This document shows positions 3,819 through 61,078 of a DNA stretch of 64,000 nucleotides, piece after piece. Position 1 is the first letter of the stretch; the number at the start of each line of letters is the position of its first letter. The DNA comes from Acidobacteriota bacterium (GTDB lineage: Bacteria > Acidobacteriota > Terriglobia > Terriglobales > Acidobacteriaceae): NCBI GenBank assembly GCA_021781495.1, contig JAJXWS010000005.1, positions 1 to 64,000 of the forward strand, in the 5' to 3' direction. A program made the translations under genes and the position numbers. The notes beneath the pieces were generated by a model, which did not search any database, was not told where the DNA came from, and saw nothing but the letters and a program-made list of their open reading frames with translations.

Positions 3819-5945
3819 TCAGTTGCCTGCCGGCGGCTTGGTGGAAGGCTCGTTGCCCTTGGCCGCGGGTTGCAGGCCGGGAACGACGGGAGCGGTGGTC
3901 ACGTTGCCGGTTGCGGCATCCTGCAGGTTGATGCCGTAGTGCTGCAGGGTGGTGGCGAGGGTCTGGTAGAGACCGGCGCGATCCCTGGCGTAAGCGGCAT
4001 TGGCAGCGATGAGGTTGTTGTCGGCGGTGGCCAGGTTGCGCTCCTGCAGGAGCACGTTGGCCGTGGTGGAGGCGCCGAGGTGGAGCTTCTTGGCCTCTGC
4101 ATCGAGGCTCTGCTGCGCGAAGTCACGAGCGGCGACGGCTGCCTTAACCTGGGCGCGGTCATTGGCGAGCGCGAACTGCGCGTTGACGACCTGCATGCGT
4201 ATCTGGGTGTAAAGCTGCTCCAGCCGCAGCTCGGCCTGACGGTACTCGATGAGGGAGCGGGCCTGCTCAGCCTGTGCGGTGCGATTGCGCAGCGGAATGT
4301 TGAGGGAGAAGCCCACGCCCTTGTCGGGGGCCGTGCTGTTGAACAGGTTCTGCAGGACGGTGCCGTAACCGACGGTCGGGAAGGTCCCGGGCGGATAGGT
4401 CTTCTGGGTGCTGAAGTTGAGAGCGTTGGGGCTCTGCGAGCCGCCCAGGGCGCTGGAGCCGTAGAAGCCGTATACGTCGAGCGAGGGCAGGAGGCCGTTG
4501 CGCGCGCCACGCAGCGTAATCTCGTCGTTCTTGAGCGTGAGCATGGCCATCTCCAGCTCGGGACGCTGCTTGAAGGCTGTCCGCACGAGCTCGTCTACGG
4601 GCTGCTTCTCCTCCGGCAGCTCTTCCAGGCTGACGCGATCGGTGGGGATGACGGCGGCAGCTTCAAGCGTGGGATCGTTGAGGTTGCGTGCGATGGCCTG
4701 CTTGATGATCTGCTGCTGATAGTTCAGGTTGCTCTGCGAGTTGATGAGCGCCTGCCGGTCCGTGGCCACGGTGGAGTCGGCGTTGACGACATCGAGCGGA
4801 GCCATGGTACCGATCTGGAGCTGCTTGCGCGTATCGTCATCGAGCTTGGTGCTCTGCTGGAGAGCGCGCTCCTTGGCCTGCACATCCTCATAGGCGCTGA
4901 CGAGGCCCCAGTAGATGTTCTCCACCTGATTGACGGTGTAGAGAATCTGCTGGCGGAAGGAGGAGTCCGTGATCCGGCGATCGTTGATGGCCTGGTACAT
5001 GAAGCGCTTGTTGACCCAGATGCCGGCGCCCTGCAGCAGATGCTGCGTGACGGTGGCCTTGAAGCTGGAGTTCAACAAAGGACTGTAGTTCTGGAAGGGG
5101 TTGTCTGTGGTGATGCGGCTGTTGACGATCGACGCGGTAAGCTGCGAGCCGGTGACGAATCCCTGGTTGTAGGTGAAGTTGTATTGGTTGGTGTTAGTGG
5201 TCAGTGACGTCTTGCCACCAGAGAAGAAGGTGTTGGCCTGCGGCACGCGGGAACGCTCAAACTGAACGGTGCCGGTGACGGAGGGGTCAAGCACGGCGGG
5301 AAGCGGTCCTGCGCCGTTGGTGGAAAGTGACAGGCCGGACGTGCCGGAGGCCGCGCCGCCGGAGCCGCCGGTGGTGCCGCCGGGGCCGCCGCCCGTGGCA
5401 AGCGTGGACGTGGTGCCGCCGAGCGTGCCGGCAACTACACCAGTTGGAACGCCGAGCAGGGCCGAGCCTGCACGCGTGCGCAGGATGTCGGTATCCGCAA
5501 TGTCGAGGTTGTAGCGGGCAATGGCAATGTCGTAGTTGTTCTCAAGAGCGAGGGCGATGGCATCGGACAGGCTGAGATAGATTTTGCCGTCCTTGAGCAG
5601 GTCGCCGAGGCGCACGGAATTGACGAAGCTCGCCTTTTCAATGTTGGTGGCGGTGTACCAGCTGATGGGATTACCCCAGGCACGTCCCGAAGGCAGGGAG
5701 AAGTCACGCTGGGCCTGGCGCAGGTTCATGGGCTGCGTAAGCACCGGGGCGGGCGCAGCGGGCAAATCGGACCTGGCCTTGTCTGTCGCCGGGGGCGCGG
5801 TCTGCTGGGCGAATCCCGATGGCACTCCTGCTGCCAATGTGAGCATGGCTGCGGCGATGGCACGAAGCTGCCTGCCTGTGTTCCCTCTTCTCTCGCCCGT
5901 GCTCAACTTCTGCTGCTTAAACACACGTATACCGAACCGATGCAT
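3819..5945 (-). CDS. TolC-family outer membrane efflux protein
   Basis: ORF 3819..6179; likely start ATG at 5945 (MHRFGIRVFKQQK... signal peptide); OEP repeats (LSLSDAIALALENNYDIAIARYNLDIADTDILRTRAG; LEQLYTQIRMQVVNAQFAL). Confidence 0.85.
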   Translation of the reverse strand: MHRFGIRVFKQQKLSTGERRGNTGRQLRAIAAAMLTLAAGVPSGFAQQTAPPATDKARSDLPAAPAPVLTQPMNLRQAQRDFSLPSGRAWGNPISWYTATNIEKASFVNSVRLGDLLKDGKIYLSLSDAIALALENNYDIAIARYNLDIADTDILRTRAGSALLGVPTGVVAGTLGGTTSTLATGGGPGGTTGGSGGAASGTSGLSLSTNGAGPLPAVLDPSVTGTVQFERSRVPQANTFFSGGKTSLTTNTNQYNFTYNQGFVTGSQLTASIVNSRITTDNPFQNYSPLLNSSFKATVTQHLLQGAGIWVNKRFMYQAINDRRITDSSFRQQILYTVNQVENIYWGLVSAYEDVQAKERALQQSTKLDDDTRKQLQIGTMAPLDVVNADSTVATDRQALINSQSNLNYQQQIIKQAIARNLNDPTLEAAAVIPTDRVSLEELPEEKQPVDELVRTAFKQRPELEMAMLTLKNDEITLRGARNGLLPSLDVYGFYGSSALGGSQSPNALNFSTQKTYPPGTFPTVGYGTVLQNLFNSTAPDKGVGFSLNIPLRNRTAQAEQARSLIEYRQAELRLEQLYTQIRMQVVNAQFALANDRAQVKAAVAARDFAQQSLDAEAKKLHLGASTTANVLLQERNLATADNNLIAANAAYARDRAGLYQTLATTLQHYGINLQDAATGNVTTAPVVPGLQPAAKGNEPSTKPPAGN

Positions 5946-6239
5946 GTTTCCTCTCCACGAGTTGCTGAGGCATGTGGGGTGCCATAGTGAAAGACGCCCG
6001 AAGAGCCCCTCCGGACGCAGAAATCTAACACTTGCAGGCGATTTTCGCTGCCAAACCTGGCCGCGGCGTCCATTCCTGAGAGCAATACGACAGAGATTCG
6101 CGCTTCGTTCCCTTGAGGCGGGATGTTTCTGAAAGCGGCATGCCTGCGGAGCGCGGAGGCGAAAACCGGATGTGTCCACACCATTCTCTCCCCTTCAGGA
6201 GCCGGGGACTCGGTTAACCTGTTATCAAGAAAGGCACCT

Positions 6240-7067
6240 GTGACGGAAACTACCCAGCAAGCTCGCGCACCGCAGACGTGGCGGCTGACGCTGGCCTATG
6301 ACGGCACGGACTTCCACGGCTGGCAGGTGCAGCCGGATAAGCCGACCGTTCAGGGCGAACTGCAGGCGGCACTGGGACGCATTGCGGGAGAGACGCCGCT
6401 GCCGCAGGGGTCAGGACGGACAGATGCCGGCGTGCATGCGCTTGCGCAGGTAGCAAGCTTCCCCTTGATGGCACCGATTCCAGCGGAGAATCTGCAGCGG
6501 GCTCTGAACCGGACACTGCCGGCGGCGATTCGGATTCTGGAGGCGCGGGTGGAGCCGGATGGGTTCCATGCGCGGCACTCGGCGCGGGCAAAGACATATG
6601 AGTACCGCATCTTTCGCGGGGAGATATGTCCGCCGTTTCTGGCGCGCTATGTGTATGCATGTCCGTGGCCGCTGAGCGTGCTGGCCCTGCACGAGGCGGC
6701 GTCGGGATTTGTGGGCGAGCATGATTTTCTGAGCTTTGCGGCGACCGATCCGGATGTGACCGCGCGGACGAACGTGAGTGAAGACCGCGATGACCCGGAC
6801 GATCGCAGAGGCACGGTGCGCACGGTGTTTTCTTCGGCGTGGGAGGAGCAGGCGACTGCGGCGGGGCGGGTGCTGGTGTATCGCGTACGGGGGAACGGAT
6901 TCCTGCACCACATGGTTCGCAACCTGGTGGGCACGATGCTGGATGCAGGGCGCGGGCACATTGACCCGAAGAGCATCGCGGAGATTCTGGAGGCGCGGTC
7001 GCGATCGGCGGCAGGGCCGACGGCTCCGGCGCGGGGGCTGTTTCTGCACTCGGTGGAGTACGACTAA
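6240..7067 (+). CDS. truA: tRNA pseudouridine(38-40) synthase
   Basis: LTLAYDGTDFHGWQVQP, GSGRTDAGVHALAQVA, NGFLHHMVRNLVGTML; ORF opens at 6123 but GTG at 6240 fits the TruA N-terminus. Confidence 0.95.
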   Translation: MTETTQQARAPQTWRLTLAYDGTDFHGWQVQPDKPTVQGELQAALGRIAGETPLPQGSGRTDAGVHALAQVASFPLMAPIPAENLQRALNRTLPAAIRILEARVEPDGFHARHSARAKTYEYRIFRGEICPPFLARYVYACPWPLSVLALHEAASGFVGEHDFLSFAATDPDVTARTNVSEDRDDPDDRRGTVRTVFSSAWEEQATAAGRVLVYRVRGNGFLHHMVRNLVGTMLDAGRGHIDPKSIAEILEARSRSAAGPTAPARGLFLHSVEYD

Positions 7068-7102
7068 AGAGGCGGCTCGCCTGCTACCCTGAAACCATCG
7101 CT

Positions 7103-8374
7103 ATGACGCTCTTTTCTCGTACTACGGCATTTTCGCGCGTTGTTGCGCTTGCGGAGCGGCGGCAGGTGCATGCCGCGTTTGCCTGGCTGCACAACAATCC
7201 CAAGACGATCCTGGACTGGCAGCGGGATGTGAGTGTGATTCCCGCGCCGCCGTTTGGCGAAGAGGCACGATCCCGGTGGATGCAGGACCGCTTTATGGAG
7301 GCGGGTCTGGCGAATGTGCAGACGGACAGCGTTGGCAATGTGACGGGATGGCTGCGGGCGGCCAAGCTGCCACCGGAGAGCAGCGGCCCGGTGGTGGTGC
7401 TGTCGGCGCATCTGGACACGGTGTTTCCGGCAGAGACGCCGCTGCAACCCACGCTGACGCAGGTGGACGGCGGCACGCGGCTGAACGTACCGGGAGCGTG
7501 CGACAACGGTGCGGGGATTGCCGGACTGCTGGCCCTGGTGCATGCGCTGGCAGAGGCGCAGGTAGAACTGGCCGCGCCGGTGCTGGTGCTGGGCAATGTG
7601 GGCGAGGAGGGCGAGGGGGATCTGCGCGGGGTGCGGCACTTCTATAACCAATCGGCACTGGCGGGGCGCATTGCCGCGCACGTGGTGCTGGATGGAGCGG
7701 GAGCGGACTCGGCGGTGTCGCAGGCGCTGGGGAGCAGACGCTACGCGGTGACGATCTCCGGGCCGGGCGGACACAGCTTTACGGATGCGGGGACGCCGAA
7801 TCCGATTGTGGCGCTGGCGACGGCGCTAGCGCGGCTGGCGCAGACGCATCTGCCCTCGGAGCCGCGCACGACGATGAATCCGGGGACGATTCACGGCGGG
7901 ACGAGCGTCAATACGATTCCGGAGAGCGCGACGGCGTCAGTGGATTTCCGCTCGACGAGCCCCGCGGAGCTGCTGCGGCTGGAGGTGGCGCTGCATCGCG
8001 CGGTGGAAGATGCGGTGGAGCAGTGGAACTCGCTTGCGGTGGCAGCGGGAACGCATGGCCGGGGACTGCTGAAGTTTCAGATCCACAAGATTGGCGACCG
8101 GCCCGCCGCACAACTGCCGGAGGACTCACCGGTGCTGGAGGCGCTGCGCGCGGTGGACCGGCATCTGGGCCAGCGGACGGATCTGCGGCTGGGCTCGACG
8201 GATGCGAATATTCCGATCTCGCTGGGCGTGCCGGCGCTGTCTTTAGGCGCGGGCGGCGATGGCGGCGGGGCACATACGCTGGCCGAATGGTATAGCGACC
8301 GGGATCGCGAGACGGGATTGCGGCGCGTTCTGCTGCTGCTGCTGGCCATGACAGAGTGGGCCGCGGAGCAGTAG
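7103..8374 (+). CDS. M20-family metallopeptidase (peptidase T/ArgE/DapE-like)
   Basis: VVLSAHLDTVFP, GACDNGAGIAGLLAL, GNVGEEGEGDLRG, GPGGHSFTDAGTPNPI. Confidence 0.92.
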   Translation: MTLFSRTTAFSRVVALAERRQVHAAFAWLHNNPKTILDWQRDVSVIPAPPFGEEARSRWMQDRFMEAGLANVQTDSVGNVTGWLRAAKLPPESSGPVVVLSAHLDTVFPAETPLQPTLTQVDGGTRLNVPGACDNGAGIAGLLALVHALAEAQVELAAPVLVLGNVGEEGEGDLRGVRHFYNQSALAGRIAAHVVLDGAGADSAVSQALGSRRYAVTISGPGGHSFTDAGTPNPIVALATALARLAQTHLPSEPRTTMNPGTIHGGTSVNTIPESATASVDFRSTSPAELLRLEVALHRAVEDAVEQWNSLAVAAGTHGRGLLKFQIHKIGDRPAAQLPEDSPVLEALRAVDRHLGQRTDLRLGSTDANIPISLGVPALSLGAGGDGGGAHTLAEWYSDRDRETGLRRVLLLLLAMTEWAAEQ

Positions 8375-51638: not shown

Positions 51639-54600
51639 TTAGTAGGTGATGTGAATCCCCATGGTGAAGGCGCGGTTACCGCCGATGGTGCCGGTGGCCG
51701 AGCCAAAGTTGGCTGCATTGTTCGGGCAGCCCATTGTATTGCTGATGGCGTACGGCGCAGAGCATGTTGTGCCGGGTGTATTCAGCGGAATCGTGGTGGG
51801 CAGTCGAATGGACCTGCCCGAGCCAGTGGAGTAAGGCAGCTGATCCAGATTGGCGCGCGTGGTCGCCTGATCCGTTGGGTCAGGGCTCGACACAAGCTGC
51901 CCATAGTTGATGTAGATGGAGCCTGGAGTGCAGTTCAGATAGCCTTCAATCGACTGCTGGGTTGCCGAAGTAGAGCACGCGTACGGCTGGCGGATCTGCG
52001 CCTGGTCCTGCGGCACATCCAGGCTGGTGGTGTTGGTCACGTTGAATGCGTTGAGCTCATAGTCGACGCCAATCTTCTCTGTCACGCGGAAGTGCTTGCG
52101 GAGCGAGAGGTCAAGCCGCTTCTGCATGGCCTGGCGGAAGATGTTGCGCTGACCGGTGTTGAAGGCGGTCTCGTAGATATCCTGCGGATCGCTGCCCGTT
52201 GAGACAGGCACGCCGGAGTCGCCGGGGTTGACGTAGTGGATGGCAATCTGGTTCGGATCGATGGTGGGAATGTAGCTGCCGGCCGAGCCGCGGAACGAGC
52301 CAGTGTTGCCGGTCAAGGCCGTGTGTGGATGCTGCGGGTCCTTGATGCCCAGTACGGGATTCATCAGGTTTGGATAGTCGCCAAAGCGCAGGCTGCCGAC
52401 CGCACCATAGAACTCATAGAGCGAGTACGGCTCGCCACTCTGGAGAATGCCCTGGCCGGTCACATGCCAGTCGTTGGCGATGTAGGCTGCGAGGGAGTGC
52501 TCTCTGGCGCTATTCGGAACAGCTACCTGGAAGTTGGCGCTGAAGACGTGCGTGCGATCGAAGTCAGAAGAAGCCCAGGAATCACGCAGCCGGAGCGGAT
52601 CGTCGCCCGTGAAGAAGAGGCCGATATCGCTCTGTTCGTCGAGGGCATGGCTCCACGTATAGCTGGCGCCGGCCTGGAAGTGATGCGAGAGCCGCTTCTC
52701 GATGTGTGTCTCCAAAGCGTCATATGCGGAAACGCCGACCGCTTTGAAGTCTGCTGCATTGGGGTTGTACCCCACGTAAGGCGCACGGAAGTCCGTATTG
52801 CCGCCGTCGTAGGTGTTCCACGGCTCGCCGGCGATGGGCATGTAGTACTGGTAGCCGTACTGATCCGTGAAGAGGTTGTACTGATTGAGCAACTCAAATC
52901 CGTACGTTGCGGTTTCGCCCCAGATGGGATTCTGCGGGGTCGCAATCCCCGGCTCGTTCAGCGGCAGCGGAATCACAGAGTGACGACCGCGGTTGCCGGT
53001 GTAGCCGACAGTAATTGCGACGTCATTCGAGGGCTGCCATTCCACGTTCAGCGTGTAGTTGATGGTGTAGGGCAGCTTGTTGTTCTTGTCATACGCACCG
53101 AAGTTCAGCGTTGGCGTGCAATCCAGATAGCCGGGGTACGTCTGGCTGTCGACGCCGCCACAGGCATTGCCATACTCCGGGTCTGAGGCCGGACCGGTCA
53201 TGATGTTGAGCTGATTCTGCAGGGCCTGCTTGACGCTGGCCGGGTTGGAGTTGGGCGGAATGTAGGAGCCGGGCGGAGTGGATTTAGCAGTGTGCAGGCC
53301 TGTGCCGATGGGGTCGGCCAGCGTGCCGCCGTTGCCCACGCCATAACTGACGAGAGGCGCTGACTCCGTAACACCGAACGGGCCGCCGATATCGCCACCC
53401 GCGGGCTGCGAGAGATAGGTGAACAGTTCGCCGCGATCGAAGTAGATGCCGCCGCCACCGCGAATGACGAGGTTGCCATGCTGCGCCTTGGGCGACCATG
53501 CAAAGCCGACGCGCGGCGAAATGCCCCACTGCCGGCCCTTCAGCGTGGAGTTGCTGACGCCCGGCGTTGGGAAGTACTTGTTGTTGCCTGCCACTTCAAA
53601 TCCGGCGTTGTTGACCGTAAAGCCGTTCGTGGTGTCGCCGGTAACGCTGTAGAGGGACGGGTTGAAGTTGAACATGTTCCCGTACCGCTCGGTCAGGCCG
53701 CCGTGATAGTCATAGCGGACACCAGCCGTGATGCTCAGGTTGGTAAGCGCCTGCCACTTGTCCTGGAAGTATCCAGAAAGCTCATTGGAGCGGTAATACC
53801 GGTTGCCGTTATTCCGCTTGCTGCTCGGATCAATGCTCTCCACGACGCTGGCGCTGCGATCATAGCCCTGTAGAAAGTCATCAAACCCATTCACCGTCAT
53901 CTGGATGTTGCCATCGCGATTGTTGGTGATGTTGAGCTGCGTATAGCTGTAGCCGCCACCGGCAACAATCGTGTGCTTGCCTGCCGTGAAAATCACGTTG
54001 GTGGAAGGATTCAGGCGGTTCTGGTAGTAGCCCATGTTGGTGAATGAGCTGGCAGGACCGAGACCGAGGCTGGGGGAATACTGGGAACTGTCGGCGAAGT
54101 TCTTGATGGTGATGCCGGGCAACCCGGGCGCGAAGTAGGCCGGGCTGAGCGGATCCGGGACGTAGGCAGAGCCCACGCCGAAGTTGCCGCCTGCGATCGT
54201 CTGCTTGAACAGGCTGTACGAGCCCATGCGCACAAAGCCCAGGCGCTGCTCCCAGTCCAGCCGCGAGCCGATGGAGAGCGTGTTGTCAATGGCGGCAACC
54301 TGCGAACCATTCTCCTGCGTGACGGGAAAGCCGGCGGTCTGCGAGTAGCCGTAGGGCTTGGTTACGGGCGCATCCTGATAGAAGTATTTTGCGGAAAGGC
54401 GGTCACTCTTGTTCACGTCGTAGTCCACCGAGATGGTGGCCTGGTTGGACGTGAGAACAGATGTGCCGATGAGGTTCACGTTGGGCACGCCATACGCATA
54501 CGGGGCGGTGGTCTGCGCCGACGGAATCAGGTATTGCCCGTTGGGCAGCTTGGCCGTGAGCAGCGCCTGTGCAATGGGGCTGATGTCCGCGGCTGTAGCG

Positions 54601-55793
54601 TGACCGCCCCAGATAGCATCGGCCTGCAACAAGCCATTGACCGAGCGGTCATCCGTCAGTCCGGAGGGCACCGTCATCTGCGACAGGCCCGTCGCCTGGT
54701 CGGAGTCAGAACGGCGCTGATAGGCAACAAAGACAAACAGCTTGTCCTTCTTGATGGGCCCGCCTGCGGTAAAGCCCAGCGACCAGCGATTCAGGTAGGG
54801 ATTGATCATCGAAGAAGGAAATACACCCACGCCCTGCTGAGAAAGCTGATAGGCCTGGCCGAAGAAGAAGGGCGAGGCGTTGAGCGCGTTGTTGGCAAAC
54901 GAGCCGTAAACCTGACCGTGCCAGTTGTTGGTTCCGGTAGCGGTGTTTACGTCAATCTGCGCGCCGCTTGTGGCTCCCTGCTGCGCGTCATACATGGAAG
55001 CGTTCACGCGCAGTTCCTGCATGAACTCCGGCGGAGGCGAGGGCAGGCTGTTGCCGTTCGATCCGTAGACCGAGGTTCCCACGGAGAACGAGCCGCCCAC
55101 GGTGGCATAGCTGCCGATGTTGAAGTTGTAACGCTGCGAGGTTGATCCGCTGGAACTCTTACCGTTGAACAGGTTCGTCGAGTCCACGCCATTCACCTGG
55201 AACGTGTTCGACGTATCGCGCTGGCCGTTTGCCCAGATGGGCTGGTTGCCGAGTCCCGCGTTGGAGTCCAGATTGGAGAGCAGTTCGGCATTCACGCCGG
55301 GCGACAGCACGGCCAACTGCGTGAAGCTGCCGGTGGCCAGCGGCGTAATGTCAATCTGCGCGGTGTCGAGCGTGTAGCCGTTGGTGGTGTCGGTCGCGTT
55401 CAGCAGCGGGGTCGAGGTCACCTCAATCGACTGCGACACATGGCCAATCCTCAGAGTCGCATTCACCGTGGTTGCACGCGCTTCCTGTACCGGAATGCTG
55501 CGCAGCTGGGTCGTGTCGAATCCACCGTGGGTGACGGTCACCACGTAAGTACCGATGGGCAGATTGAATATCTGGAAGAAGCCCGTCTCCTGGGAAGTGG
55601 TGCTTCGCGTTACGTTGATTGCGGAATTGGTTACGGTAACCGTAGCCCCGGGAATCGCTGCTCCTGTTGTGTCCAGCACGGTGCCGTTGATGGAACCCAG
55701 GGTCTGTTGTGCGGAACTCGGAATACAACAAAAGAGCGCAGCCAGAAACATCAGGCCGCACCCAGTAAAGCGCCTCCATGAAACTCGATGCAT
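51639..55793 (-). CDS. Oar-like TonB-dependent outer membrane receptor with carboxypeptidase-regulatory-like N-terminal domain
   Basis: Signal peptide, then QQTLGSINGTVLDTTGAAIPGATVTVTNSAINVTRSTTSQETGFFQIFNLPIGTYVVTVTHGGF; C-terminal GIHITY; M at 55793. Confidence 0.93.
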   Translation of the reverse strand: MHRVSWRRFTGCGLMFLAALFCCIPSSAQQTLGSINGTVLDTTGAAIPGATVTVTNSAINVTRSTTSQETGFFQIFNLPIGTYVVTVTHGGFDTTQLRSIPVQEARATTVNATLRIGHVSQSIEVTSTPLLNATDTTNGYTLDTAQIDITPLATGSFTQLAVLSPGVNAELLSNLDSNAGLGNQPIWANGQRDTSNTFQVNGVDSTNLFNGKSSSGSTSQRYNFNIGSYATVGGSFSVGTSVYGSNGNSLPSPPPEFMQELRVNASMYDAQQGATSGAQIDVNTATGTNNWHGQVYGSFANNALNASPFFFGQAYQLSQQGVGVFPSSMINPYLNRWSLGFTAGGPIKKDKLFVFVAYQRRSDSDQATGLSQMTVPSGLTDDRSVNGLLQADAIWGGHATAADISPIAQALLTAKLPNGQYLIPSAQTTAPYAYGVPNVNLIGTSVLTSNQATISVDYDVNKSDRLSAKYFYQDAPVTKPYGYSQTAGFPVTQENGSQVAAIDNTLSIGSRLDWEQRLGFVRMGSYSLFKQTIAGGNFGVGSAYVPDPLSPAYFAPGLPGITIKNFADSSQYSPSLGLGPASSFTNMGYYQNRLNPSTNVIFTAGKHTIVAGGGYSYTQLNITNNRDGNIQMTVNGFDDFLQGYDRSASVVESIDPSSKRNNGNRYYRSNELSGYFQDKWQALTNLSITAGVRYDYHGGLTERYGNMFNFNPSLYSVTGDTTNGFTVNNAGFEVAGNNKYFPTPGVSNSTLKGRQWGISPRVGFAWSPKAQHGNLVIRGGGGIYFDRGELFTYLSQPAGGDIGGPFGVTESAPLVSYGVGNGGTLADPIGTGLHTAKSTPPGSYIPPNSNPASVKQALQNQLNIMTGPASDPEYGNACGGVDSQTYPGYLDCTPTLNFGAYDKNNKLPYTINYTLNVEWQPSNDVAITVGYTGNRGRHSVIPLPLNEPGIATPQNPIWGETATYGFELLNQYNLFTDQYGYQYYMPIAGEPWNTYDGGNTDFRAPYVGYNPNAADFKAVGVSAYDALETHIEKRLSHHFQAGASYTWSHALDEQSDIGLFFTGDDPLRLRDSWASSDFDRTHVFSANFQVAVPNSAREHSLAAYIANDWHVTGQGILQSGEPYSLYEFYGAVGSLRFGDYPNLMNPVLGIKDPQHPHTALTGNTGSFRGSAGSYIPTIDPNQIAIHYVNPGDSGVPVSTGSDPQDIYETAFNTGQRNIFRQAMQKRLDLSLRKHFRVTEKIGVDYELNAFNVTNTTSLDVPQDQAQIRQPYACSTSATQQSIEGYLNCTPGSIYINYGQLVSSPDPTDQATTRANLDQLPYSTGSGRSIRLPTTIPLNTPGTTCSAPYAISNTMGCPNNAANFGSATGTIGGNRAFTMGIHITY

Positions 55794-56109
55794 TGGTCTC
55801 CTCGCAGTTTCTTCGCTTTGAGTGCATTGTTTTTGAGTTGCAGAAAATGGAAATAGGCGGTCGTGCTGCCTCGGCTTCAGATACCTAGCTTGACCTGTAC
55901 TGCATGAGGACTGTCTAAAGGGGGATAACGTAAGACAAGAATAGTGTGTGACAGCGACGTCCCTCTTTCCAAGAGGGAAATTCAATTTCCGAATCGGTTT
56001 ACAAAAACTTAATTGTGGAAAAGGAGGGCGGAATTCCGACGCCGCGGTCGCAGCGGGAGGCGGGCCTCCGCGAATTGGCGCGGCATTTGGCCCTGAAATC
56101 AAAATATTC

Positions 56110-56150
56110 GCGCGACAGGCGGAATTCCGTCTGGATTCCGCCTGTCGCGC
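56110..56150 (-). terminator. hairpin terminator downstream of btuB-like gene
   Basis: GCGCGACAGGCGGAAT-N9-ATTCCGCCTGTCGCGC, 16-bp perfect stem; T-containing tract follows on minus strand. Confidence 0.75.
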
Positions 56151-56210
56151 AGCAATGCATCTCAAATAATGGAATTAGGATGGTGCCCGGAGCAGGAGAT
56201 GTGCCTCCAC

Positions 56211-58691
56211 TCAGCGCCCGCTTCCCTTGCCCCATTGCAAACGCAAACCGGTACGTACGCCCACGGGCAGGTTGACATAACCGATGGGCGCAATGTGCTG
56301 ATTATTGGTCAGGTTGTCCAACTGGCCGTAGACGCTTATCCACGAAAGTAGCTGGAAGTTGCCACCAGCATCCAGCTTGGCGTAGCCGTAGTCGAGATTG
56401 CGATTGGGCAGCAGCAGGCTGTTTCCGAAGTTGATATCCGAGCCACCGAGAAAGTCTGAGTCGTCTGACCGGCTGGCGAAGGCCGCCGTGAACAGGGCTG
56501 TCAGCCTGCTGTGCGAATAGCTGGCCGTAAAGAAGCCCGTATGCGGCGGGCGACGGAACGGGCGCGCGCCCTGGAGCGGCGAGTACACACCCACCGGGAT
56601 TCCGTTGGAGGTGGGCACCGGCCCCAGCAGAGCTACGTCGTCATTGGAGAAGGAGCGCTGCACGACAGCGTCGAGGTAGGTGTATCCGCCGCGCAGAAAG
56701 ATGCTGCTTCGGATGCCGCCCTCCACGGTCGTTTCCACGCCGAGGGCGCGATATGCCTCCGTGTTCAGGCTCTGCTCGTAAGCTCCGTTGGCCTGCAGGA
56801 ACTGCTCAAGTTGATTCTGCTGCTCCTGCGTCAGATTCGGCAGCAGTTGGGGGATGAGGTTCAAACCCACGTACTCGATCTGCCGCCCAAACTCGTTATG
56901 GAAAAAGCTGGTACGGAAAACGAGGCGCTTGCTGAAGAATGCCTGCTCCACGCCACCCTCATACGTGCGAGTGGTAGGGGCAGCCAGCGGCGTAATGTGC
57001 AGTTGCTGAATGGTGGATTGACCGCCGTTGCTCGCAAGAAAGTTGTAGAGCGAGTAGAACTGGTCGGTCAGTGAGGGCTCGCGCACTGCATCGCCAAAGT
57101 TGAACAGCAGGCGCGTACCGCTGAAGATGCCCTCGCGCGGCCGCAGCAGGTAAGCGGAGAAGCCGGCCCGCGGCGAGGTTTGCGTGCCAAACAAGGAATA
57201 GTGTTCCAGGTCGCCGCCCAGCGTATAGAAGAAGCGGTTCTTGAAGTCGCCATGCACGGACGCACGATAGTCGTAGTTGGTGCGCTCTACGGGTGTGTAG
57301 TACGAGCTGCCCGGCTCTGCGCCGCGTTCGTCCTCATACTGGAAGCCGATCATGCCCACCAGGTGCGGCGTAAAGTCGTAGTCGCCCTGATAGACCAGCT
57401 CATCCCGGTTTGAAACGAGCTGATGCCCCTGCGGGTAGGTCCCGGCGTAATCCAGCAGCGCCTGGCCGGTGACCGAGTAGCCGTTTGCGCCGGTAATCGT
57501 GACCACATTGCCATAGCTGTCGCCGTAGGCATCAAACGTGCCGGAGCCGCTCTGCGACCACAGATTGTACTGCTCGCGCTTGCGAGCCAGGCCGTAGCGC
57601 ACTGTGTTGTGGAAGTCCGCCGTGGTCTGGTTGTCAATGGATGAGCTGAGATACAGATCCTGATCCTTCTGCGTAGCGTTGTCGGCCACATGGTAGAACT
57701 GCCACGCGTTGGGAACGCCCGTTCCGGCTACGCCGTAGTGCACCGTACCCCGTACCTGCGTGCGTCCGCTGGGCTGCCAGCCAAAGTTGCCCGCGGCGGT
57801 GGCCACGTGAAACTCGTCGTTGGGCAAGTCGTTCGCCGTCTGGTACCAGCTGAAGGCGCCCAGGTAATCGAGCTTGCGGTGCGCTCCGGCAACTTCAAGA
57901 TCCTCTTGCGAAGAGGCAAAGCTGCCCGCATCTCCGTGGAACAGGAAGGACGGGAAACTGGTGGTGCCGTGTGGCGTGGTCAGGCTGACAACACCGCTGG
58001 CCGCGTCGGCTCCGTAGAGGCTGGAGTTGGGCCCGCGATAGACCTCCGCGCTCTCGACGGCGGTCGTTGAAAGCGGCCCGAAGTCGAATCTTCCGCCCAG
58101 GTCGCCCACGCTTATGCCGTCCATCAAAATCATGTTGGAGTCTGAGTCACCGCCGCGAATGAACAGAGAACTTTGTGCGCCGCGCTGGCCAGTCTGCGCT
58201 ACAAATGTTCCGGGCATCAGCCGCAAAGCACTCACCAGGTCATTGCGCTGCGCCAGATCCAGCGGCTGCAGCACACTGGTCGCCGCGCTCGTTTGCGACT
58301 GCGGCGTGGGGGTTCCGGTCGCGGTCACCACAATGGACTCGCGCGCCCATTCCGGCTCCAGAACCAGGTTGCGCTCTACGCTGTCAAAGCGGCCGGCGTA
58401 GAACCCCGGCGTTGCCATCTGGCGGAACGTCCTGGCGGATACGACAAGATAGAAGCGGCTTTCGACGCCGGTCGTAACCTGGTAGCTTCCGTCCGGCCCG
58501 GAGACGGCCGTTGCCACCACTCCGCTCTGATTCAGGAGGGAGATCGTGGCGCCTGTCACCTTCGCCCCGGAGGTGTCCGTCACGATGCCGCGAATAGACG
58601 CGGCGCGGCAGGCAATGGCGGCAAAAAAAGAAAGAAAAATGAGAAAGGAAACACGCGCGGCACGGGCGCGCAAGCGTGGCAAGTCTGTCAT
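56211..58691 (-). CDS. btuB: TonB-dependent receptor, BtuB-like (probable corrinoid uptake)
   Basis: RGIVTDTSGAKVTGATISLLNQSG; SALRLMPGTFVAQTGQRGAQSSLFIRGGDSDSNMILMDGISV plug; cobalamin riboswitch upstream; M at 58691. Confidence 0.85.
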   Translation of the reverse strand: MTDLPRLRARAARVSFLIFLSFFAAIACRAASIRGIVTDTSGAKVTGATISLLNQSGVVATAVSGPDGSYQVTTGVESRFYLVVSARTFRQMATPGFYAGRFDSVERNLVLEPEWARESIVVTATGTPTPQSQTSAATSVLQPLDLAQRNDLVSALRLMPGTFVAQTGQRGAQSSLFIRGGDSDSNMILMDGISVGDLGGRFDFGPLSTTAVESAEVYRGPNSSLYGADAASGVVSLTTPHGTTSFPSFLFHGDAGSFASSQEDLEVAGAHRKLDYLGAFSWYQTANDLPNDEFHVATAAGNFGWQPSGRTQVRGTVHYGVAGTGVPNAWQFYHVADNATQKDQDLYLSSSIDNQTTADFHNTVRYGLARKREQYNLWSQSGSGTFDAYGDSYGNVVTITGANGYSVTGQALLDYAGTYPQGHQLVSNRDELVYQGDYDFTPHLVGMIGFQYEDERGAEPGSSYYTPVERTNYDYRASVHGDFKNRFFYTLGGDLEHYSLFGTQTSPRAGFSAYLLRPREGIFSGTRLLFNFGDAVREPSLTDQFYSLYNFLASNGGQSTIQQLHITPLAAPTTRTYEGGVEQAFFSKRLVFRTSFFHNEFGRQIEYVGLNLIPQLLPNLTQEQQNQLEQFLQANGAYEQSLNTEAYRALGVETTVEGGIRSSIFLRGGYTYLDAVVQRSFSNDDVALLGPVPTSNGIPVGVYSPLQGARPFRRPPHTGFFTASYSHSRLTALFTAAFASRSDDSDFLGGSDINFGNSLLLPNRNLDYGYAKLDAGGNFQLLSWISVYGQLDNLTNNQHIAPIGYVNLPVGVRTGLRLQWGKGSGR

Positions 58692-58734
58692 GCTGGCTCC
58701 TTCGTTCCCCTCGGAACGCAAGCGGGTTTGGGTG

Positions 58735-58980
58735 CGACCGGGACCGGTCTCCTGACTTGCGCCATTCTCATCGGCCACCTTCCCAAAGGCAGACCCTGCG
58801 GGACTGTCTCCAGTGGTTCATTGGCTGCCTTGCCTTGGCAAAGCAGCGCTGGCCGATCTCCTGCTCTGAGCCATACGACGGCCCATGCGGCAGGGGCGCT
58901 CACAGTTGCGGGGCAGTGGCGGAGTTTCACCGCCTTCCCGAACATCCCGGCGATTGCCGTGGTTGAACATACCGTCTCGC
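58735..58980 (-). ncRNA. cobalamin (B12) riboswitch
   Basis: Minus strand: GGGAAGGCGGTGAAACTCCGCCACTGCCCCGCAACTGT (B12 box) ... AAGTCAGGAGACCGGTC. Confidence 0.92.
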
Positions 58981-59187: not shown

Positions 59188-59422
59188 ACTGTAATCACAG
59201 GGTACCACCGGTAGCGATTCATCAGCCAATACCAGCAAAGGGTGCAGTTTATGTGAGCCTCATCACAGACAGACGTCTTTTGATCTCGCTTCAATGAGGC
59301 AGAAAGAATTATTGAGCTTATTTACAACTTCGCTCCTTCGACGAACGGTCATGGAAGGAGTCTGGTCTCTGCCGTTCTTCCGTCTGCCTTGACTGGATCC
59401 CTCATCGAAGGAGGAAGCCCCC

Positions 59423-61078
59423 ATGAAGCAACCAGGGCCATTGCTGGTTCTTGGCAGTCTGATTGGATTGGCGTCATGCAGCATGGGCACCAATCCAGAC
59501 AGCAGTTCGTCCGACAAACCCACCTCCCCCCCTCCTCCAGCGCAGTCGGGAAACTACGTCGTCACGGCGTGGAGTGAACTTGGCATGCATTGCATGGATG
59601 GCAAGGACTACTCCATCTTTGCAGTGCTGCCGCCCTACAACACAGTGCGCGCTCAAGTGATTCAACGCGGCGATAATCCCACGCTCGTCACGGGAGTCAC
59701 CGTGACCTACGAGGCAATGACGGATACTTCCGGATCCATCAATACCACCAGCGTGAGCAAGACCAACTTCTGGAGCTACGTCAAAACCCTGTTTCACGTG
59801 AATGTCACAGGGGACATAGGGCTGACCGGGAATCCGGTGCAGAGCAAGAAGCCGCATCCCATGACCTACGACAGCACCTCGGGCACATGGGAAGCCACGG
59901 CAATTCCGACGGTACCGTACGACGACGCGGGCAACCGCAATCCGTATCCCATGGCGAAGATCGTGGCCCGGGATGCATCCGGCAAAGTGCTGGCCACCAC
60001 CACCGCGGTGCTTGCCGTGAGTGATGAGATGACCTGCTCCACCTGTCATGCCTCCGGCGGCAGCACGGCAGCACAACCGGCCTCAGGATGGGAGAACAAC
60101 CCTGATCCTGCCAAGGATGTGAAGCTCAACATCCTGAAGAAGCACGACGACCGCTGGAATGTCTCGTCTTACCTGCCTGCGCTGCAAGCCAATGGTTATA
60201 CCTACCAGGCAAGCCTGTATCAGACGGCCAAATCCGGTACTCCGATTCTGTGCGCGGCGTGCCATGGTACCAATGCGCTCTCTGCTCCCGGCATCTCCGG
60301 AATCCGTCCGCTGACCCAGGACATGCACGACCTGCACAGCTCTGTGATCAATCCCTCGACCGGTACGACGCTCGACAACGCCACCACGCCCTACAATTCG
60401 TGCTATCTGTGCCATCCCGGGCCGCAGACGAAGTGCCAGCGTGGAGCGATGAACAAGGTTGCGTGTTACGACTGCCACGGCAACCTGAGCGCGGTGGGAT
60501 TGGCGACACGACAGGGCTGGCTCGACCTGCCATCGTGCCAGATGTGCCATACAAACGGAACGCGCTACTCCACCACCTTTGACTCGACCGGAGCGTGGCG
60601 AATCGCAACCGATCTGACGTTTGCCACTAACCCGGACACACCTTCCGTGGGCAAGGATTTGTATCGCTTCAGCAAGGGGCATGGCGGAGTCTACTGCTCC
60701 GGCTGCCACGGATCGCAACACGCGGAGTATCCCAGCCTGCAGGCCAACGACAATGTGTACAGCACCAATCTGCAGGGCTACGCGGGAAAGATCGTGGAAT
60801 GCACCGTGTGCCACGTGACAGCCCCAACGACGCAAACGGGCGGGCCGCATGGCATACATACCATCGGCCAGACGTGGGTCAATCAACATTCCAGCTACGC
60901 CAGCAACGGGCGCTATACGCAATGCGCCTATTGCCATGGAGCAAATTACACAGGCTCACCGCTCTCCGCCACGTCAACGGCAAGAACGTTCTCTGTAGAC
61001 GACGGCGGCTCAAAGTCGTTTACCCAAGGGCACCAGGTGAGTTGCTATGACTGCCACAACGGCCCCAGCGGAGGTTAG
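59423..61078 (+). CDS. multiheme c-type cytochrome, putative lipoprotein (nine CXXCH)
   Basis: CSTCH, CAACH, CYLCH, CYDCH, CQMCH, CSGCH, CTVCH, CAYCH, CYDCH; lipobox-like LIGLASC. Confidence 0.92.
   Translation: MKQPGPLLVLGSLIGLASCSMGTNPDSSSSDKPTSPPPPAQSGNYVVTAWSELGMHCMDGKDYSIFAVLPPYNTVRAQVIQRGDNPTLVTGVTVTYEAMTDTSGSINTTSVSKTNFWSYVKTLFHVNVTGDIGLTGNPVQSKKPHPMTYDSTSGTWEATAIPTVPYDDAGNRNPYPMAKIVARDASGKVLATTTAVLAVSDEMTCSTCHASGGSTAAQPASGWENNPDPAKDVKLNILKKHDDRWNVSSYLPALQANGYTYQASLYQTAKSGTPILCAACHGTNALSAPGISGIRPLTQDMHDLHSSVINPSTGTTLDNATTPYNSCYLCHPGPQTKCQRGAMNKVACYDCHGNLSAVGLATRQGWLDLPSCQMCHTNGTRYSTTFDSTGAWRIATDLTFATNPDTPSVGKDLYRFSKGHGGVYCSGCHGSQHAEYPSLQANDNVYSTNLQGYAGKIVECTVCHVTAPTTQTGGPHGIHTIGQTWVNQHSSYASNGRYTQCAYCHGANYTGSPLSATSTARTFSVDDGGSKSFTQGHQVSCYDCHNGPSGG

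Follow-up and report, generated by a model that had tools for sequence, protein, structure and literature searches.

A constrained nine-heme putative lipoprotein cytochrome gene of an acidobacterium is a member of an unnamed, conserved family spanning at least four phyla

A 551-residue c-type cytochrome encoded in an acidobacterial genome belongs to a conserved but unnamed nine-heme family that occurs in at least four phyla, and we read it, with a probability of roughly 0.55, as an exported, lipid-anchored wire that carries electrons at the outer membrane or on the cell surface. New here are the observations that nine histidines outside the CXXCH motifs are invariant in 53 of 53 nine-heme-type members, and that seven-heme relatives lose exactly hemes 8 and 9 together with His479 and His489. 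In bacteria that are abundant in soil and take part in the sulfur cycle, the family may account for cryptic electron transfer at the outer membrane or outside the cell, and it offers two directly testable features: the variation of hemes and histidines at the C-terminus, and an N-terminal domain without known relatives that appears to supply one heme with a ligand. Proteins with at least eight CXXCH motifs have been reported from all of a set of acidobacterial bins, with most substrates left unknown (PMC8100337), and Acidobacteria were proposed as iron reducers in a tundra-soil metagenome from their decaheme genes (PMC3669403).

The gene lies on the forward strand of the window, by which we mean the whole stretch of DNA analyzed (64,000 nt), and starts with an ATG eight bases downstream of a Shine-Dalgarno-like sequence (Table 1). 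The initial annotation had described a nine-heme protein with a lipobox-like LIGLASC in an acidobacterium, and all three points are borne out: nine CXXCH motifs were counted in the open reading frame (20,000 shuffles of its residues gave a mean of 0.03 and a maximum of 2), L-A-S-C occupies residues 16-19 with Cys19 as the putative lipidated cysteine, and the host is an acidobacterium. Approximately 200 residues precede the first heme motif, comprising a signal (1-19), a linker (~20-43) and a conserved domain (~41-203). This region, previously called heme-free, does lack CXXCH, although the term applies to covalent attachment only, since His56 within it is probably a heme ligand (see below). 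No second multiheme open reading frame was found within the window.

Table 1. Coordinates of the nine-heme cytochrome gene and its parts in the window
Feature	Position	Strand	Basis
Nine-heme putative lipoprotein cytochrome gene, 551 aa, stop included	59423..61078	+	ORF, motif count, alignment, shuffles
Shine-Dalgarno-like AAGGAGG	59408..59414	+	sequence
Predicted signal peptide and lipobox LASC, residues 1-19, putative lipidated Cys19	59423..59479	+	sequence
Ser/Pro-rich low-complexity linker, residues 20-43	59480..59551	+	sequence; pLDDT <50 for residues 1-39
N-terminal beta-sandwich domain without CXXCH, residues 41-203, family-specific	59543..60031	+	profile and fold searches, model
GMHC motif, residues 54-57, His56 (proposed distal heme ligand) and Cys57	59582..59593	+	61/61 aligned members have both residues
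Heme motif 1 CSTCH, residues 205-209	60035..60049	+	
Heme motif 2 CAACH, residues 277-281	60251..60265	+	
Heme motif 3 CYLCH, residues 327-331	60401..60415	+	
Cys338, invariant non-heme Cys after heme motif 3 (CHPGxxTxCxR)	60434..60436	+	alignment
Heme motif 4 CYDCH, residues 348-352	60464..60478	+	
Heme motif 5 CQMCH, residues 372-376	60536..60550	+	
Heme motif 6 CSGCH, residues 425-429	60695..60709	+	
Heme motif 7 CTVCH, residues 460-464	60800..60814	+	
C-terminal add-on, residues 477-551: His479, His489, hemes 8-9; missing from seven-heme relatives	60851..61075	+	alignment
Heme motif 8 CAYCH, residues 501-505	60923..60937	+	
Heme motif 9 CYDCH, residues 541-545	61043..61057	+	

One genome scan returned 38 loci encoding relatives, nearly all of them full length, from Acidobacteriota, Campylobacterota (Sulfurimonas, Sulfuricurvum, Sulfurovum and Hydrogenimonas), Pseudomonadota of the Beta-/Hydrogenophilia (Rhodoferax, Tepidiphilus and Uliginosibacterium) and one bin labelled Nitrospirae (Nitrospirota). 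Full-length relatives are 47-79% identical to the window protein across its whole length, and every complete locus encodes nine CXXCH motifs, with a tenth in the long upstream frame extension of one of them. These loci rule out an orphan gene, and the stand-alone oddity that had been suggested from the window gives way to a multi-phylum family. Within a sample of Acidobacteriota, 37 of 297 genomes contain a match; the matches include a shorter branch, made up of seven- or eight-heme proteins and one nine-heme member, which the tree splits with strong support from the 53 nine-heme-type members. The window protein has the defining traits of the family, namely a GMHC domain (with invariant LGxHC and LPPxN), at least seven CXXCH motifs and the invariant distal histidines. 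In seven relatives, approximately 200 extra residues of low similarity, Ig-like or of low complexity, stand before the GMHC domain.

Comparison of the gene with those of four close members of its genus gave a dN of 0.15-0.16 and a dS of ~1.4-2.1, hence a ratio of ~0.1 that is rough because dS is near saturation. The gene is under purifying selection, and because its protein is also conserved across phyla we conclude that it is a real, constrained gene. That the gene is a recent acquisition or is decaying, an accessory that does little in this strain, would fit its patchy occurrence in the genus (4 of 35 relatives plus its own genome), the different neighbors from genome to genome, and a copy from outside the genus but within the family (genome G081, contig C97, L092:4604-6173, minus strand) that is broken by stops or a frameshift and is either a pseudogene or an assembly fault. 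This reading is nevertheless highly improbable for the window gene, whose reading frame and ribosome-binding site are intact, whose dN/dS is low, whose 18 heme-related histidines and heme cysteines are all retained, and whose product clusters in the tree with members of its own genus.

The main argument on heme ligation comes from the histidines. All 53 nine-heme-type members share 18 histidines without exception: the nine in the CXXCH motifs and nine others (residues 56, 241, 302, 305, 420, 433, 476, 479 and 489), while the remaining three of the window protein (125, 145 and 537) vary across the family. Four relatives with seven hemes lack motifs 8 and 9 along with His479 and His489 and keep the other seven histidines; eight-heme members, read by eye from a less certain alignment, have two histidines in the matching stretch, giving eight for eight. 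Length variation at the C-terminus of the family consists of heme plus matching histidine. Because heme number and invariant histidines change one-to-one, the simplest reading is that every heme would be bis-histidine ligated, with none left as an open catalytic site. His56 is the sole invariant non-CXXCH histidine of the N-terminal domain and for this reason is probably a heme ligand donated by that domain. Cys57 and Cys338, both invariant in 61 of 61 aligned members, might form a disulfide.

Many multiheme cytochromes of similar size are enzymes, and the N-terminal domain could serve as a substrate pocket, so that a multiheme reductase of the NrfA, octaheme or OcwA type, reducing a small molecule at one or more open hemes, has to be weighed. 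In OcwA, the nonaheme terminal reductase of Thermincola potens, hemes 2 and 5 are open and one heme is ligated by His and Met (PMC6703420); the window protein is like OcwA in having nine hemes, and a surface electron-transfer role may be proposed for it by analogy, but it differs in offering a candidate invariant histidine partner for every heme. These nine candidate distal ligands argue against a penta-coordinate catalytic heme, as does the one-to-one change of histidines and hemes in relatives. By sequence, the protein could not be matched convincingly to NrfA, to octaheme reductases or to OcwA: OcwA was absent from the results of PDB sequence and profile searches, in which NrfB appeared only at E 3.7, and NCBIfam matches to relatives were weak and far below cut-off. 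An enzymatic role is accordingly unlikely.

Profile searches place the window protein in the general multiheme c-type cytochrome class, with its nine CXXCH motifs, its lipobox and the PF01578 genes of its genome, and give little beyond that. Pfam returned only generic c7/c3 heme profiles (PF14522 and PF14537) with whole-protein scores over cut-off. The PF14522 (Cytochrome_C7) match, 31.4 bits against a curated cut-off of 24.8, is confined to the C-terminal half and is uninformative as to function. The likeness to cytochromes c7/c3 lies in generic heme-motif spacing, whereas these profiles are short units that miss the N-terminal domain. No NCBIfam profile matched the window protein over its cut-off, and no description of the nine-heme family was found in the literature library that was searched.

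Closer to the proposed role are MtrC, MtrF and OmcA (PF22113, TIGR03507), which are likewise exported multiheme lipoproteins with beta domains; PF22113, the MtrC/MtrF heme domain, is matched by 33 of 37 relatives (best E 5e-17), a point in favor of the surface wire. Those proteins are decaheme, whereas the window protein has nine hemes and a single N-terminal beta domain of unmatched sequence. It also falls outside the MtrC/OmcA group in matching neither PF22113 nor TIGR03507, the former a point against a surface wire, and in coming from a genome where MtrB/PioB (PF11854) had no match at E 1. Sequence and profile searches of the whole protein against the PDB gave no match below E 0.002, and all matches rested on heme motifs. 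Recognized outer-membrane partners of the Shewanella type were thus not found.

AlphaFold2, run without heme, modeled the full-length protein with moderate confidence (pLDDT 71, pTM 0.74), which weighs somewhat against the surface wire, and the N-terminal domain confidently (pLDDT 92, pTM 0.88) as a beta-sandwich with one helix. Foldseek searches of the PDB with the whole protein and with this domain gave no match below E 0.001, the best matches of the domain being generic Ig/p53-like sandwiches (TM ~0.5 or lower). A profile of the domain matched nothing in the PDB up to E 10 and only stray, weak entries in Pfam, and it falls outside every entry of Pfam, NCBIfam and the PDB; we therefore regard this domain as lacking known relatives.

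Extracellular multiheme wires of Geobacter offer a further parallel. In OmcS and OmcE one heme ligand, a histidine, comes from the neighboring subunit, unlike in OmcZ, whose precursor combines a heme domain with Ig-like beta-sandwiches (PMC9473688). The window protein differs from all three in heme number and sequence and in its N-terminal beta domain and lipobox, and these solved filament cytochromes gave no match up to E 10 in PDB sequence and profile searches. By analogy with OmcS and OmcE, an inter-subunit role of His56 is thinkable, in which the histidine of the GMHC domain would ligate a heme of the next molecule and build a conductive filament or surface array in Acidobacteriota and Sulfurimonas-type Campylobacterota; we consider this very unlikely.

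Where the protein would face is suggested chiefly by its relatives. A lipobox alone tells nothing about the side of the membrane; a lipobox-like cysteine is present in many relatives, and a plain signal peptide only in some. Several other Acidobacteriota relatives have C-terminal tails with two SLH repeats (L056, genome G335), PKD repeats (L054, L060), Big_9/cadherin-like domains (L051, L097) or four Ig domains (L087). Such SLH, PKD and Ig domains are typical of secreted surface proteins, and their presence supports export to the surface. In two Campylobacterota loci that are near relatives of each other (L011, L013), a BBP2-type beta-barrel (porin) gene lies 80-83 bp downstream of the cytochrome gene, and it lies farther away in others. 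Surface or outer-membrane electron transfer by the window protein is thus plausible. The same wire could instead face the periplasm, as a lipoprotein in the outer membrane's inner leaflet or in the inner membrane that shuttles electrons between redox partners in the periplasm, or stores them, with no extracellular step. A lipobox that fits either side, relatives with a plain signal peptide only and the missing outer-membrane conduit would all suit this arrangement, while the surface-type tails and the porin-adjacent loci point outwards; we regard it as possible, though the less probable orientation. Evidence against the surface wire is that Acidobacteria loci have no porin or partner gene beside the nine-heme gene, and because MtrB/PioB is also missing from the genome, the outer-membrane route lacks a candidate.

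No conserved partner accompanies the gene in Acidobacteria. Downstream of it in the window are a PEP carboxykinase gene and the start of a gltB-like gene, but an operon with PEP carboxykinase was rejected, as the pair with gltB is kept in several relatives (G001, G008, G009, G012) with other genes upstream. Because its neighbors vary and the pair occurs without it, the nine-heme gene is a self-contained unit in Acidobacteria. Plasmid carriage was also considered, and no match was found. In Campylobacterota the setting is different: an OmpR-like response regulator gene lies 16-166 bp from the cytochrome gene in eight loci, as well as in one Hydrogenophilales contig, often with a histidine kinase gene (L008, L014, L015, L022, L024, L026, L029, L033, L038), which suggests two-component control of the cytochrome in Campylobacterota.

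The initial annotation had noted that electron-transfer partners and cytochrome-maturation genes were not adjacent, which holds locally, but the genome contains maturation genes and further multiheme genes elsewhere. Four PF01578 cytochrome-assembly genes score over cut-off. An 11-heme open reading frame with a C-terminal transmembrane stretch is followed by a cytochrome b561-like gene (contig C98, positions 4872-7161, L089), and this pair is a candidate quinol-to-periplasm electron module. Also present are an octaheme protein with PF13447 (E 9e-26; C100:2458-3696, minus strand, L091) and, on C43, a five-heme protein that is presumably the alternative complex III subunit ActA. The octaheme protein further resembles the hydrazine dehydrogenase/HAO type, far below cut-off.

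On the preferred reading of a surface wire, heme attachment would fall to the cytochrome c assembly machinery of the cell, and each of the nine irons would be held by the histidine of its CXXCH motif and one of the nine invariant histidines, with His56 tying the N-terminal beta-sandwich to the heme chain. Because no heme would be left open, the protein would act as an electron relay rather than a heme catalyst. Electrons might leave the quinone pool by way of a multiheme module in the periplasm or inner membrane, for example the cell's own 11-heme/cytochrome b pair, reach the nine-heme protein and go on to an extracellular or outer-membrane acceptor such as a mineral, a humic substance or a partner protein. 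A specific tie to the 11-heme module was rejected: orthologues of the 11-heme gene occur in 32 of 36 genomes of the genus, often with a second paralogue nearby, as compared to 5 of 36 for the nine-heme gene, a lack of co-inheritance that also counts against the surface wire. From these frequencies, the nine-heme gene is accessory to a common base. Directly upstream of it in the window, on the opposite strand (51639-58778), are two large open reading frames (frames of 1508 and 855 aa) whose products appear TonB-dependent-receptor-like.
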